Part shown: positions 4,303 to 63,154 of the stretch, piece after piece
Position numbering within the stretch: position 1 is the first letter of the stretch
Layout of the letters: the number at the start of each line of letters is the position of its first letter
From: Actinomycetales bacterium Actino_02
GTDB lineage: Bacteria > Actinomycetota > Actinomycetes > Propionibacteriales > Propionibacteriaceae
NCBI GenBank assembly: GCA_001603275.1
Contig: LUYM01000030.1
Coordinates: 1 to 64,000 of the forward strand
DNA: 64,000 nucleotides
Reading direction: 5' to 3'
Position numbers and translations under genes: made by a program
The notes under the pieces: model-generated
What the model was told of the DNA's origin: nothing
Databases searched by the model: none
What the model saw: the letters and a program-made list of their open reading frames with translations, nothing else

Positions 4303-4669
4303 GCTTCAGCATCGATGGACGGTAATGGAACCGTCCCCACCAATTGCGCTGACCAGGCTGGACGGTAATGGAACCGTCCCCACCAATCGCGCTGACCAGG
4401 CTGGACGGAAATGGAACCGTCCCCATTCGTCCCGTGGGACGTAACAGGAACCGTCCCCATTCGTCCCACCGACCGTCCGTCTTGTCGCGCTAGACGGCAA
4501 TGGAACCGCCCCCTTCAGGATGTGGGACGTAACAGGAACCGTCCCCTTTCGTCCCGGAGGACGCAGTGGCGGCACCGGGGATTCCCCGGCGCCGCCACTA
4601 TCCACCTCGGGCCCCTGACGGGCACCATCCGGCCTGGTCGATGCCCGTCCAGACACGGGACCCGGAGCC
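4303..4669. repeat. Gene-free convergent region with six dispersed repeats, three in a 43-bp tandem
   Basis: These 367 bases hold type B repeats at 4317-4338, 4360-4381 and 4403-4424. Their starts are exactly 43 bp apart, and the spacer CACCAAT(T/C)GCGCTGACCAGG is repeated with them. A type A repeat follows at 4436-4458, a degenerate type B at 4492-4513 and a type A at 4524-4546. The region lies between convergently transcribed genes (APH-like kinase and ABC permease). I see no coding sequence. Confidence 0.85.
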
Positions 4670-17729: not shown

Positions 17730-17865
17730 GGGGACGGTTCCTGTTACGTCCCAACCGAGACAAAACGGGGACGGTTCCTGTTACGTCCCAACCGGTGTTC
17801 TTGCAGGGAAAGCTCCCTCCTACTGACATCACGTCACAGAGAAAGGGGACTGTCCCCTTTCTCTG
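17730..17865. repeat. Repeat cluster: two type A and one type C
   Basis: Type A repeats lie at 17730-17752 and 17767-17789 (both GGGGACGG-first, 37 bp apart). The type C element at 17837-17865 is a perfect palindrome apart from its central base (CAGAGAAAGGGGAC-t-GTCCCC...). They fill the gap between arr and the S4-domain gene. Confidence 0.9.
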
Positions 17866-18233: not shown

Positions 18234-19061
18234 TCAGCGCAGGAACAGCGAGCGCAGCCGGCGAGTGGTGAAGGCGATGCCGAGCACCGACAGAGCCACA
18301 AAGTAGGTCAGATGGACCGCGGTGGACGCCTCGAAGTGGCCCACCGACAGCTGGCGCATCAGCTCCACGCCGTGCCACAACGGCAGCGCCATGATGAACC
18401 ACTGGACGGCCTCGGGGAACGCTGAGATCGGGAACAGCGTGGCCGAGAACAAGAACATCGGCAGCAGCACGATGTTGATCCAATCCATCTGCTGGAAAGT
18501 GGTGAAGTAGCTGGTCACCGCCATGCCCAGGGAGGCGAAGCCGAGCGCGATCAGCAGCGCCACCGGGATCATGGCCAGGGCCCACCAGCTGGTGGCCAGG
18601 CCTAACGCGGCGATCACCGCCGTGAAGCCGATCGCGTACAGCAAGCCGCGGAACAGGGCCATGAAGATTTCGCCGGCGGCCACGTCCAGCGGCCCGAGTG
18701 AGGTGGCCAACATCCCCTGGTAGAGCTTGGCGAAGCGCAGCTTGAAGAAGACGTTCCAGGTGGAGTCGTACAGTGCCCCGTTCATGGCGGACGTCGCCAG
18801 AAGCGCCGGCGCGATGAAGGCGGCGTAGGTGATCGGATGTCCGCCCGGCCCGGTCACGTCGCCGACCAGGGCGCCGACCCCGTAGCCCATGCTGAGCAGG
18901 TACAACACCGGTTCGAAGAAGCCCGACACGATGATCGCCCAGTTCTGGCTGCCGACCACCCGGAAGCCGCGCTCGACAACGGCGCGGACGTTGCCCGAGG
19001 AGTTCGCGGCGAACCAACCGCGGACGCCGCCGCCGACCGGACGCACAGTGGTGGCGCTCAC
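18234..19061 (-). CDS. ABC-2 type transporter permease (second of pair)
   Basis: The 275-residue protein has six membrane segments and the ABC-2 signature LPMFLFSATLFPISAFPEAVQWFIMALPLWHGVELMRQLSVG near the C-terminus. The start is the GTG at 19061, which overlaps the preceding permease stop as GTGA; the upstream extension to 19232 lies inside that gene. Together with the next two genes it forms a NodIJ/DrrAB-like exporter with two different permeases. Confidence 0.9.
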   Translation of the reverse strand: MSATTVRPVGGGVRGWFAANSSGNVRAVVERGFRVVGSQNWAIIVSGFFEPVLYLLSMGYGVGALVGDVTGPGGHPITYAAFIAPALLATSAMNGALYDSTWNVFFKLRFAKLYQGMLATSLGPLDVAAGEIFMALFRGLLYAIGFTAVIAALGLATSWWALAMIPVALLIALGFASLGMAVTSYFTTFQQMDWINIVLLPMFLFSATLFPISAFPEAVQWFIMALPLWHGVELMRQLSVGHFEASTAVHLTYFVALSVLGIAFTTRRLRSLFLR

Positions 19062-22895: not shown

Positions 22896-23044
22896 GGGGA
22901 CGGTTCCAATACCGTCCACTCGTCGGCATCCACCCACGCCGACTGGCGACTCGGACGGCCGGTTCGCTCGCGGCAACCCCGACCCCTGAGACCGTCGAAG
23001 GGACCCGGACGTAGACAAGGGTGGACGGTAATGGAACCGTCCCC
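22896..23044. repeat. Two inverted type B repeats with a type D element between them
   Basis: A type B repeat (CAATACC variant) lies at 22896-22917 in GGGGACGG-first orientation, and another at 23023-23044 in the opposite orientation. Between them, at 22981-23006, is a type D element (CCCTGAGACCGTCGAAGGGACC). The region lies between convergent yigZ and DUF4921 genes. Confidence 0.85.
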
Positions 23045-23053
23045 GTTGTTGGG

Positions 23054-24403
23054 TCAGGAGCGGTTGGCCCGGTAGCGCAGCGGGTTGGGCTTGCAGGGGG
23101 CCTCGGTGGCGATCTGCAGGGACGAGGCGATCAGGCCGGCGTCGCGCAGCTGCCAGAGCTTGGGCACCAGGCGATCCCGCAGCCCATAAGGGTCGATGGT
23201 GTTCAAGTAGATCTTGGTGGCGCCTTCGAAGCCGGCCAGCGTGGACGTCCGCCACTTCAGCATCACCCGCCACGGCATCGGCAGGTCGGTGTCGATCGGA
23301 CGATAGTGCCACTCCTCATTGCACGGCACCGCCACCCCGGTCGCCGCATGCATGGCGTGCACCATGTCCGAGACCGCACGCAGCTCGTCCTCGGTGTGGT
23401 TCCACGGATCGCAGGCCTCGGACTTGGAGTAGATCTCGACCGTCGGGTAGCGATGCCCGAAGCCGGCGAAGGCAACCGCGAACTCGTTCTCGGCAAGGAT
23501 CAGGTTCTTGTACGCGGCGTAGTTGGGGCCGAACTCGTTGTAGATGTTCGGGTTCGCGCGCAGCCGCTGCATGGCCAGCTCATGCTGAACACCACGCTCA
23601 TCAATGGCAACCAGCTGCTTGTGCAGATGATCGAACGAAGCCCCAGCCGGACGCAGCCAGTTCTGGAACACCGCAACGTAGCGGGCGTACCGGTTCGACT
23701 CGAACAGCCCGGCCGCCGACTCGACGGTGAACTTCTGGAACTGGTGGTGCTCTTCAGGCGTCAGCGTGCCGGACGAACACAGCTGGGTGTTGTCGGTGGC
23801 GCCGTCCACGAAGTGACGCCGCGCCACGATCACGTCATGTCCGCCGCCGAAGAAGCCGGACGCGTACTCCAGCCGCTCAGCCTCGCTCAGCGCCTCGATC
23901 TCGGCCGGGGTGCGACCGCTGGCCGCCAACTTGGCCGCGACCACCGACAGCACGTGCGCCTTTCCGGCCGGCGAGGCCAGATAGGAGTCCCGGCGCTCGC
24001 GCACCCGCTCGGGCAGTTCGTAACCGTAGTTCAGGTGCCAGTAGTCGTAGCTGAGAATCTCGAACAGGTTCGGGATCCGGCGAAACTCCGCGGCGGTCGT
24101 GTCCAGTTCCTCTGCGGGCGTGCGATACCGGGTCTCCCAGCCACCGTCTGGACGCCGCACGACCCGCGACTTCTCCGGCGGGGTCTCCAGCTTGCGTCCA
24201 TCACAGAAGGCGCAGTGGCGGCCGTGTTGAGCCGGATCCAACGGCACCGGATCGGGCAGGCTCACTCCCAGTGGACGGTTCCCGCGGCCGGCCACCGTCC
24301 ACACCTCGGTGCCGCTGAACGGGTTGAGCTGCTTGGTCGTGCCGTCCTTGAGTTGGGTCAAGAACTCCGGGTCACGGAGATACGGCTGCACCACGGCGGG
24401 CAC
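23054..24403 (-). CDS. DUF4921 family protein, GalT-like (HIT superfamily)
   Basis: The 449-residue protein resembles galactose-1-phosphate uridylyltransferases. A zinc site is suggested by HGRHCAFCDGRK (CxxC), and the nucleotidyl-transfer histidine region by GASFDHLHKQLVAID (HxHxQ). The second half contains CNEEWHYRPIDTDLPMPWRVMLKWRTSTLAGFEGATKIYLNTIDP, typical of the DUF4921 group in actinobacteria. Substrate is not established; it may transfer a nucleotide to a sugar phosphate. The start is GTG at 24403. The gene lies directly downstream of the four-copy 24-bp array, which therefore sits where its promoter should be. Confidence 0.85.
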   Translation of the reverse strand: MPAVVQPYLRDPEFLTQLKDGTTKQLNPFSGTEVWTVAGRGNRPLGVSLPDPVPLDPAQHGRHCAFCDGRKLETPPEKSRVVRRPDGGWETRYRTPAEELDTTAAEFRRIPNLFEILSYDYWHLNYGYELPERVRERRDSYLASPAGKAHVLSVVAAKLAASGRTPAEIEALSEAERLEYASGFFGGGHDVIVARRHFVDGATDNTQLCSSGTLTPEEHHQFQKFTVESAAGLFESNRYARYVAVFQNWLRPAGASFDHLHKQLVAIDERGVQHELAMQRLRANPNIYNEFGPNYAAYKNLILAENEFAVAFAGFGHRYPTVEIYSKSEACDPWNHTEDELRAVSDMVHAMHAATGVAVPCNEEWHYRPIDTDLPMPWRVMLKWRTSTLAGFEGATKIYLNTIDPYGLRDRLVPKLWQLRDAGLIASSLQIATEAPCKPNPLRYRANRS

Positions 24404-24740
24404 CCTTCCAGCGAGCGATGTGTTACCGCGATCAGGGTAGTCTCACCAGCCAGTCTCGCCCAGCCGCAATCACCCGAACCGCGCGGACGGGCCCTCCTCG
24501 CCGCCCAGTCGCATAGTCCCGACCGGACGCGCGCCGAGGCCGTCCATCGACATGCGGGTTATCGGCAGAGGCCCGTCGGCTGTGGCGGAGCTATCCATCA
24601 CAAACGGGGTTACCAACGATCGTGAGGCCGCCATAACCCAACTTGCGATGGATAGCGTCTCCGACGTTGAGCCCACCGCGCTGATAACCCTCGCTTCGAT
24701 GGATAGCCGTGGCGATCCGTTGCCGGATGCCAACGCCCGG
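24404..24740. other. Gene-free region (337 bp) carrying the four-copy 24-bp array
   Basis: No convincing gene is visible between the HupE-type gene and the DUF4921 gene. The main content is the array at 24539-24707. Open frames of 87 residues (minus, 24470-24733) and 92 residues (plus, 24552-24830) cross it, but their 17-residue periodicity simply reflects the 51-bp spacing. No type A, B or C repeat is present, unlike most gaps of this size here. Confidence 0.6.
24539..24707. repeat. Symmetric array of four 24-bp elements RTAACCC-N6-YGATGGATAGC
   Basis: Four copies of a bipartite 24-bp element are present. Copies on the minus strand lie at 24539-24562 (degenerate: ATAACCC, N6, CGATGGA then CGGC) and 24590-24613. 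Copies on the plus strand lie at 24633-24656 and 24684-24707. Within each pair the starts are exactly 51 bp apart, so the whole block is a large inverted repeat of two 75-bp halves whose N6 and 27-bp spacers are not conserved. Conserved ends with variable spacers and fixed spacing suggest a protein-binding array (operator or iteron-like). I do not recognise it. Confidence 0.85.
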
Positions 24741-26030
24741 TCAGGCGGCCAGCCCGTTCGAAGGACCCAAGGGCGCCGGACGCGAGCGCGACGCCAGCCA
24801 TCCGGCGACCGAGGCGGTGACGAAGAGTAGGTAGCTGGCCAGCGGATAGGCGCTGATCAGGTCGAACACCGGCTGCAGGATCGTGGACGAATCGGTGAGC
24901 ACCGCCACCGCCCAGCAGACCGAGGCCACAGCCGAGAACGACGCCAGTCCGACCCGGAACCAACGGTAGCCGCCGCGAGTGGCCAGCAGGAGCAGCACCG
25001 GCAGCACCAACGCGACGACGGCCAGCTGCGCCAACTCGACTCCCACGTTGAAGCCCAGCACGGCGATCACCGTGGCCCGGGTGTCCAGTCCAAGGTCGAG
25101 AATCGCGGTGGCGAAGGCCGTCCCGTGGACCAGGCCGAACAAGCCCCCCACAACGATCTCGCCGCGAGCGGCCAGTGGACGCAGCGCGTGGATCCCCGCT
25201 ACCAGGATTGAGCCGGCCACCGCCACCTCTACCGGCTGGCTCGGGAAGTGCACCAGCCCGAACGAGACCAAGGCCAGCGAGGTCGTGTGGCCAGTGGTGA
25301 AAGCCGTGACGATGCCCAGCGTCCGGCCGAGCGCCGAGCGCACCGGACGCCGTCCGGACCACCGGCCACCGACGGCCACCAGTGGCGCGGCCAAGAGCAG
25401 AGTGATCAAGAACAGCAGATGATCGGTGCCGTCGGCGATGTGTTTGGCGCCCAGGCCGACCATGGCCGCGAAACCCGTCCAGGCTGACGCCGCGCTGCGC
25501 TGGATCGTCAGGGTGGGGCTGGACGCGTCCAGGCTGCCCAGCGGAGCCGGGCCACCCTCACCGACCTGGCCGGCCTCCAGATCCGAGACCAGGAAGACGA
25601 AAGCCTTGTGGCCGGCCACCTGGGCGAGGACCAGTGAGTAGTCCAGCCGCAGGTCTCCATCCAGACGTCCCAGCGGCGGATTCGCGCTCAGCCGGACGTC
25701 GAGGGCCCGCGTGCCGTTCACCTCCTGCGGCTCCAGCGCGGTGACCGCGAGCGCATAGGGCAACGCCGCATCGCTGATCCGCACCCCGGACAGCACCCAC
25801 TGCGTCAGCGGAACTCGGGCAGCCTCGATCGAGGCTTGGGTTCCGTCCAGGTGCAGCCCGGCGGCCTGATTCAGCTTGTCCAGCGGGATCGCCAGCTCGA
25901 CGTCCACTCGATCGGCGCGCACCGTCAGATAAACCGCGCTGGCCCCGATCGGGTGAGCCCAGGCCGCAGCGGCCGGCGCCAAGATGAAGATCACCACAGC
26001 CGCCGCCAGGACCCCGATCACCCGCTTCAT
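24741..26030 (-). CDS. HupE/UreJ-type membrane permease
   Basis: The 429-residue protein has a signal peptide (MKRVIGVLAAAVVIFILAPAAAAWAHP), an extracytoplasmic N-terminal domain of about 160 residues, and then about seven membrane segments. The HupE/UreJ motifs GLGAKHIADGTDHLLFLITLLL and VGGLFGLVHGTAFATAI carry His and Asp residues thought to bind Ni2+ or a similar metal in this family. The HP after the signal cleavage site would expose a histidine near the new N-terminus. Its ATG overlaps the preceding stop (ATGA), linking it to the secreted protein genes upstream. Metal specificity is not shown. Confidence 0.85.
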   Translation of the reverse strand: MKRVIGVLAAAVVIFILAPAAAAWAHPIGASAVYLTVRADRVDVELAIPLDKLNQAAGLHLDGTQASIEAARVPLTQWVLSGVRISDAALPYALAVTALEPQEVNGTRALDVRLSANPPLGRLDGDLRLDYSLVLAQVAGHKAFVFLVSDLEAGQVGEGGPAPLGSLDASSPTLTIQRSAASAWTGFAAMVGLGAKHIADGTDHLLFLITLLLAAPLVAVGGRWSGRRPVRSALGRTLGIVTAFTTGHTTSLALVSFGLVHFPSQPVEVAVAGSILVAGIHALRPLAARGEIVVGGLFGLVHGTAFATAILDLGLDTRATVIAVLGFNVGVELAQLAVVALVLPVLLLLATRGGYRWFRVGLASFSAVASVCWAVAVLTDSSTILQPVFDLISAYPLASYLLFVTASVAGWLASRSRPAPLGPSNGLAA

Positions 26031-38712: not shown

Positions 38713-38781
38713 GGGGACGGTTCCTGTTACGTCCCAAGGTTCACGAAGCGTCAAGGTTGGGACGTAACAGGAACCGTCCCC
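38713..38781. repeat. REPIN-like pair of inverted type A repeats
   Basis: Type A elements at 38713-38735 and 38759-38781 face each other across a 23-bp spacer (AAGGTTCACG...AAGGTT). The same arrangement with almost the same spacer occurs at 45305-45371 and 48908-48976. This indicates that the pair, not the single repeat, is a unit that spreads. Confidence 0.88.
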
Positions 38782-39890: not shown

Positions 39891-39994
39891 GGGGACGGTT
39901 CCGAGATTCGTAGCTCAGCCCTCTGACTAGGGGTGGACCGAAATGGAACCGTCCCCCAGTTTTGGTCCAGCGGGACGAAACAGGAACCGTCCCC
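39891..39994. repeat. Repeat cluster: degenerate half element, type B, type A
   Basis: A half element (GGGGACGGTTCC then diverged sequence) lies at 39891-39910. A type B variant follows at 39935-39956 and a type A variant (GAAACAGG loop) at 39972-39994. A short direct repeat CTTTCGTCCCGGAG follows and reaches the pheA stop region. The cluster lies between the convergent SMR and pheA genes. Confidence 0.8.
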
Positions 39995-45304: not shown

Positions 45305-45371
45305 GGGGACGGTTCCCCTACCGTCCAAGGTTCACGCAACGTCCAGGTTGGACCGAAATGGAACCGTCCCC
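45305..45371. repeat. REPIN-like pair of inverted type B repeats
   Basis: Type B elements at 45305-45326 (CCCTACC variant) and 45350-45371 (CCGAAATGG variant) face each other across the spacer AAGGTTCACG...CAGGTT. This is the same spacer that joins type A pairs at 38713 and 48908. Confidence 0.85.
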
Positions 45372-48854: not shown

Positions 48855-48976
48855 GGGGACGGTTCCATTACCGTCCACCGGGCCACCTCCATGCCGCCGG
48901 GACGAAAGGGGACGGTTCCTGTTACGTCCCAAGGTTCACGCAGCGTCCAGGTTGGGACGTAACAGGAACCGTCCCC
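48855..48976. repeat. Type B repeat followed by a REPIN-like type A pair
   Basis: A type B element lies at 48855-48876. Facing type A elements at 48908-48930 and 48954-48976 are joined by the same AAGGTTCACG...CAGGTT spacer as at 38713 and 45305. The second one ends only 8 bases before the E2 gene's stop codon. Confidence 0.9.
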
Positions 48977-52507: not shown

Positions 52508-53224
52508 CGTGAGGCTCGCGACCTGCCCTAACTTACGGTTACGTAACCATAGGTGTCAATGGTCCACGGCTCCCGATAGGTACCCATTCGTCCCCCGCCA
52601 TCCGAAGTACGGGGACGGTTCCAATACCGTCCACCCAAGCCAGAGGCCAGTCCTGGGGACGGTTCCATTACCGTCCGTACGGCTGCCCACAAACACTCGT
52701 CATCTGCCGGAAGTAAGGTCGCCCCCGGCGCAACCGAAACCGCGGTGGACGGTAACGGAACCGTCCCCACGAAGACGGGTGCGCCTGACCTCAAACCTAA
52801 GTTCGGTCCCGATCCTGCGGGGCTCGCACACCATCCCCAGTTCACACCCGATTTCCGTGCCCAATCCGACAGCTGCGTGAGGCCGGATTGGGTACCAGAC
52901 TCGGTTATCAGTGCCGAGGAATCCAATACGGGCTCCCCGTGCACGTCAGGCCGGGAACTCCAGCTCAAGCTCATCGGGACGTTTCCGCATGCCGCAACCA
53001 CTGGGCTCGGCGGTCCACCCGAGAGCCCGGCGCCCAATTCGACGATTCGAGCCATGCTGATCACGGCCGACGCCACGTCCGGACGGGCCTGCCTGATCCG
53101 CGTCCAAACCGGCGATGGGGCGTCCCAGCCGCTGTCCGGCGGCGTGAGCCTCTCCCTCGGCTAGTCCCGAGAGCGAGGGCTTGGGACGTAACAGGAACCG
53201 TCCCCTTATGTCCCGAACGCCGGC
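52508..53224. other. 717-bp gene-poor region with four dispersed repeats and a long stem-loop
   Basis: Type B repeats lie at 52611-52632, 52655-52676 and 52747-52768, and a type A repeat at 53183-53205. From about 52780 to 53160 the sequence is less GC-rich than its neighbours and has no convincing gene. The open frames crossing it include translated repeat sequence. CCCAATCCG and CGGATTGGG at 52860-52868 and 52884-52892 form a 9-bp perfect stem around a 15-nt loop. This could be a decayed gene or a small structured RNA; I cannot tell which. Confidence 0.5.
52537..52548. promoter_or_regulatory. Perfect 12-bp palindrome GGTTACGTAACC upstream of the dehydrogenase operon
   Basis: The dyad is centred 35 bp upstream of the E1alpha ATG, where a promoter or 5'-UTR operator would be. 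The flanks (TTAC...CATA) continue the symmetry only weakly. It is a candidate binding site for the operon's regulator; no regulator gene is adjacent. Confidence 0.5.
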
Positions 53225-63094: not shown

Positions 63095-63154
63095 CGCTAC
63101 CGAAGGCAACCTTTGCTACCGAAGTTTCGGTAGCGGGAGTTCCCTTCGGTAGCG
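63095..63154. promoter_or_regulatory. Nested double palindrome with four GCTACCGAA boxes
   Basis: The outer inverted repeat CGCTACCGAAGG (63095-63106) / CCTTCGGTAGCG (63143-63154) is perfect over 12 bp. It encloses a second perfect one, GCTACCGAA-GT-TTCGGTAGC (63115-63134). The four boxes are arranged two forward then two reversed. The structure lies between DUF5318 (divergent) and tRNA-Ala, where the DUF5318-PBP operon promoter should be. It may be a cooperative operator or a cruciform-forming element. Confidence 0.7.

Follow-up and report, generated by a model that had tools for sequence, protein, structure and literature searches.

The window, i.e. the whole 64-kb stretch of DNA that was analyzed, contains a gap between two genes transcribed from the minus strand that harbors the array described here. 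Downstream of the array lies a gene coding for a DUF4921 (GalT-like) protein (23054–24403, minus strand; PF16268, E 3e-206). On its other side is a gene for a HupE/UreJ-type membrane protein (24741–26030, minus strand; PF13795, E 2e-36), the 3′ end of which faces the array, in agreement with the initial annotation, which had placed the array on the downstream side of a HupE-type permease gene. Ahead of the DUF4921 start, at a distance of 30–36 bp, there is a TACCCTG box on the minus strand (24433–24439), which is probably the −10 region of the DUF4921 promoter and is found again upstream of several orthologues. The box is outside the array, which extends from 136 to 304 bp upstream of the DUF4921 start and begins about 100 bp beyond the probable core promoter. 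The array had been assigned to the DUF4921 promoter region; it is indeed upstream of this gene, but it does not overlap the probable core promoter. Among the genes scanned, no regulator gene is found beside the array; the nearest one found codes for a TetR protein, adjoins an SMR pump gene and is 14 kb distant. The window also includes a gene for a rifampin ADP-ribosyltransferase (Arr; PF12120, 17253–17711).

The array is made up of four copies of the 24-bp bipartite motif RTAACCC-N6-YGATGGATAGC, two on the minus strand and two on the plus strand, and a search of the window at up to three mismatches retrieves exactly these four. Three of them are perfect. The expected number of matches per window is 0.02 on average, and none of the dinucleotide shuffles reached four. 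From left to right, the array comprises site C1 (24539–24562, minus strand; ATAACCCGCATGTCGATGGACGGC), with two mismatches at its distal, outer end (GGACGGC for GGATAGC), a non-conserved spacer of 27 bp (24563–24589), site C2 (24590–24613, minus strand; GTAACCCCGTTTGTGATGGATAGC), a centre of 19 bp (24614–24632), site C3 (24633–24656, plus strand; ATAACCCAACTTGCGATGGATAGC), a second non-conserved 27-bp spacer (24657–24683) and site C4 (24684–24707, plus strand; ATAACCCTCGCTTCGATGGATAGC). The order of the sites is hence − − + +, in two mirror-image halves of 75 bp, the whole array (24539–24707) being 169 bp long. Site starts are separated by 51 bp within either half and by 43 bp between the two inner sites, on either side of the centre; the coordinates agree with the spacing, the mirror-image halves and the centre as they were first proposed. 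The proposal that the sites face the same side of the helix holds in that the spacing is near-integral, but only approximately, as 51 bp correspond to about 4.9 turns at 10.5 bp per turn. The GC content of the array is 0.60, vs. 0.70 and 0.73 in the flanks.

The two 75-bp halves were superimposed to compare the arms (7 + 11 bp) with the 6-bp cores and 27-bp spacers. Identical positions amount to 32/36 in the arms and to 15/39 in the cores plus spacers (Fisher p = 1e-5), the latter value being background, not above the shuffled expectation (P = 0.10). All four 6-bp cores differ, with pairwise identities of 1–3 of 6. Conservation is thus confined to the outer 7 and 11 bases, as had been suggested, and a simple recent duplication is likewise discarded, cores and spacers being unrelated while the arms are fixed. 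From this pattern, it is sensible to consider the arms as bound positions. The sequence at this locus is a real, selectively conserved, single-locus and mirror-symmetric array of four sites. Translated, the arms would give [IV]T-x-x-[ASV]-MD[SG] with a 17-codon period, and one outside match sits in an apparent threonine-dehydratase-like coding frame. A coding repeat was nevertheless dropped: both strands carry sites, there is hardly any variation at synonymous positions, and such a frame would depend on ATA/GTA codons, of rare use in GC-rich genomes.

The distribution of the motif was analyzed at increasing phylogenetic distance. At up to two mismatches, this is the only locus in the 3.05-Mb genome, which rules out the dispersed repeat that a genome-wide search with the bipartite pattern might have revealed; three further matches, at three mismatches, are near background. 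The 29 other genomes of the genus lack the array and contain four lone sites at two mismatches. No site at up to one mismatch occurs in 198 genomes of the family, and BLAST of the element against 397 genomes of the order gave just short chance matches. Looser two-site patterns, run on 397 genomes of the phylum and 395 of the class, matched in the source genome alone. An exact scan of the GTDB r220 species genomes yielded nine lone sites, none with a second site nearby, and no array, although collection scans of this kind may omit very near relatives of the source genome. Nothing comparable to the array, and hence no plasmid or phage relative of it, came out of the plasmids, phages and viral contigs searched; the one tandem match, in a viral contig, belongs to a different kind of repeat and apparently lies inside coding sequence. 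A literature search by motif letters returned chance matches only. Both the motif and the array appear to be undescribed in the literature and sequences searched, binding-site arrays themselves being of a known kind.

Of the 30 genomes of the genus that were searched, 24 have DUF4921 matches, and the source genome alone has the array. Footprinting upstream of the DUF4921 orthologues did not recover it in any of the 29 other genomes, orthologue carriers included, so that the cooperative operator initially proposed does not stand as a DUF4921 operator conserved across the genus; for such an operator at least, this is the second of the two outcomes that the initial annotation itself had named as refuting. 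HupE is present in only two other genomes of the genus. In a sister species (G001), the neighboring DNA is 85–89% identical and the same gap, devoid of the array, holds a gene for a TetR-family regulator and a two-gene ABC transporter cassette (L038:7500–10176). In another genome (G006), DUF4921 and HupE are nearly adjacent, with almost no gap. These two configurations identify the DUF4921–HupE gap as an indel-prone place. Either the array arrived in the source lineage or it was lost in all the others.

Our leading, if still tentative, explanation is that the array is a multi-site protein-binding array, probably brought into the lineage ready-made. Each 24-bp element would be read as two parts, the 7-bp and 11-bp arms, across a 6-bp core that is not read; two elements with the 51-bp spacing would make up a head-to-tail pair, and the two pairs face outward from the centre that they share. 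All four sites could then be occupied by a protein, probably multimeric, that folds the 169 bp into a single complex. We infer both protein binding and its cooperativity. Arrival in an already formed state is suggested by the comparison of sequences, because the spacers are fully diverged and yet the sister species, alignable at 85–89%, lacks the array. Its likeliest present effect would be on the DUF4921 transcription unit, the promoter of which is about 100 bp away. Four sites where 0.02 are expected, the identity of the arms, the single genomic locus, the lower GC content and the position in a gene gap remodeled between species all argue for a binding array. Against it count the lack of an adjacent candidate regulator gene among those scanned and of any other target in the genome, the latter being odd for a regulator. 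When compared with the motif, AraC-type, DnaA-type, XerCD-type and IdeR-type sites do not fit. A regulatory platform would be well placed for DUF4921, but it finds support neither in a regulator gene nor in a second target or conservation at orthologues; two tandem pairs in exact mirror symmetry are more usual for the ends of mobile elements than for operators. As the regulatory platform and the mobile-element ends are close as readings, we prefer the general statement of a binding platform.

A close rival, although we consider it doubtful, is that the array is a mobile element, dead or non-autonomous and some 165–169 bp in length, in which two ends came to abut when the interior was lost; each end would have one transposase-type site at its terminus and another in subterminal position (inverted-repeat/direct-repeat ends). 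Paired-site ends of this type are known from Tc1/mariner elements (e.g., Sleeping Beauty) and multi-site ends from Tn7 and Mu, and MITEs can consist of two ends with paired transposase sites. The outward mirror symmetry and the identical 51-bp spacing of both halves are what such ends would look like. Terminal inverted repeats are present, the outer 35-bp arms being 74% complementary and each including the conserved 7 + 11 bases, but the outer tips differ (CG vs. TA). Exactly at both outer edges there is a 7/8 direct repeat, GCCGAGGC (24533–24540, its last two bases overlapping C1) and GCCGTGGC (24706–24713, its first two bases overlapping C4), which could correspond to an 8-bp target duplication. 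Since two of its bases are common to the motif and a repeat of this quality is found in random intervals at a frequency of 0.01–0.05 (0.02 in the GC-rich flanks), it is suggestive only. Absence of the array from relatives, the remodeled gene gap and the lower GC content are also in line with an insertion, and the genome has a RAYT gene with flanking REP pairs that follow the − − + + order of the array. A mobile element ought, however, to have relatives somewhere. The genome contains no second copy, and neither a full-length or paired relative nor an autonomous element sharing these ends was found in GTDB, viral contigs or the genomes of the order, class and phylum. We regard as unlikely a broader alternative in which an undescribed DNA-binding system, belonging either to a regulator or to a mobile element, has the array as its cis-acting part; the protein of this system would read the 24-bp two-part site and assemble on two mirror-image tandem pairs, without relative in the species genomes searched.

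The initial annotation also mentioned a recombination or chromosome-organising site. A site for recombination, partition or chromosome organisation, whether centromere-like or with a 6-bp core between the arms for a tyrosine recombinase, would explain both the arm-core-arm anatomy and the single locus per genome. We nonetheless consider it improbable: there is no inverted-repeat relation between the two arms, and the four cores differ, which makes a homology-requiring tyrosine-recombinase crossover among the copies unlikely. No recombinase or par gene was seen among the nearby genes scanned. Absence from every relative searched, unexpected for a chromosome-maintenance site, speaks against the chromosome-organising role.

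The genome is rich in REP elements. A family with about 300 copies of GGAACCGTCCCC (140 on the plus and 160 on the minus strand), which form part of hairpins such as GGACGGTAATGGAACCGTCC, has the variants GGACGGTAATGGAACCGTCCCC and GGGACGTAACAGGAACCGTCCC and occurs in 21 of the 30 genomes of the genus; searching the literature for these letters gave no paper about this family. Within the window, it occurs at 1219–1325, 4327–4546, 17730–17778, 22896–23044, 38713–38781, 39891–39994, 45305–45371, 48855–48976, 52611–52768 and other places. Among the places listed, 15 clusters are of a single orientation and 12 are mixed, all 12 reading minus before plus; spacings are mostly 43–44 or 54–61 bp, the commonest same-strand spacing being 43–44 bp. 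The window also contains a compact intergenic hairpin cluster at 63095–63154, with short plus- and minus-strand copies of CGCTACCGAAG. Two Y1-transposase (RAYT-like) genes were identified in the genome. The first one (L074; G000:C29 near 18277–18606) has mirrored REP flanks (951 −, 995 − and 1039 − on one side, 1997 + and 2040 + on the other) and is a candidate driver of the GGAACCGTCCCC family. The second one (L075) is flanked by palindromes (CCCGCAGAAAAAGGGGACWGTCCCC; two near-identical palindromes CCCGCAGAAAAAGGGGACWGTCCCCTTTTTCTGCGGGG at 1302–1340 and 2265–2303); it is a second REP/transposase pair in one genome. In G001, downstream of DUF4921, there is a regular REP-type cluster of alternating-orientation TCCGCCCCACC/GGTCCGCCCC units about 95 bp apart (L038:5620–6104). 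In another species of the genus, a different REP-like unit, GAACCGAAGTACCTGTCCCCGACGGTTC, is densely arrayed (L028:3754–4017), which suggests a fast turnover of REP sequence between species.

Given these clusters, the − − + + layout is at home in this genome. Similar mixed clusters and spacings (about 43–61 bp) and the two Y1-transposase genes would fit a third REP/BIME-like family mobilized by a REP-associated tyrosine transposase, a reading that we hold to be very unlikely. As hairpins, the 24-bp sites reach −1.7 to −4.8 kcal/mol, like shuffles, whereas REP units reach −8 to −28. There are four sites at one locus and not hundreds of dispersed intergenic copies; core and linkers are not conserved, unlike the loops of REP units and many REP linkers in the genome, and the motif flanks neither RAYT gene, both being flanked by other repeats. 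Folding and copy number largely refute a third REP family: hairpin, sequence and copy number differ, so that the sites are not REPs, and what the array has in common with the GGAACCGTCCCC elements is the intergenic layout. A functional RNA or DNA hairpin (a terminator or an RNA element) is scarcely credible: the array folds as one long stem on either strand (−97 and −93 kcal/mol, z about −5 to −6), but energies stay as low when everything except the arms is shuffled (z −0.5 to −0.8), so that the hairpin is a by-product of the mirrored arms, whose pairing is no better than the repeated sites force, and neither an Rfam family match nor a terminator-like site was seen at the array. The arms alone explain the energy, and nothing points to selection on an RNA or a cruciform.

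Being single and highly ordered, the protein-binding array that we favor offers a clean bait for a new DNA-binding protein. Whether it serves a regulator or derives from a dead mobile element matters, as the answer would reveal by what route preformed binding platforms come to lie in promoters; a mere relic would be of local interest. When compared with paired-site transposon ends and MITEs, the array lacks a second copy, a proven target duplication and a known partner transposase, but it resembles them in being short and of patchy occurrence, in its mirror symmetry and in having a terminal and a subterminal copy in each half. The other systems to which it can be likened are the multi-site cooperative operator arrays of complex bacterial upstream regulatory regions, which include several sites per regulator. 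It departs from these in its arrangement as two mirror-image tandem pairs and in having no adjacent regulator gene, further genomic targets or conservation at orthologues. Like them, it presents several copies of an asymmetric bipartite site, at a fixed and near-integral helical spacing, upstream of a promoter.
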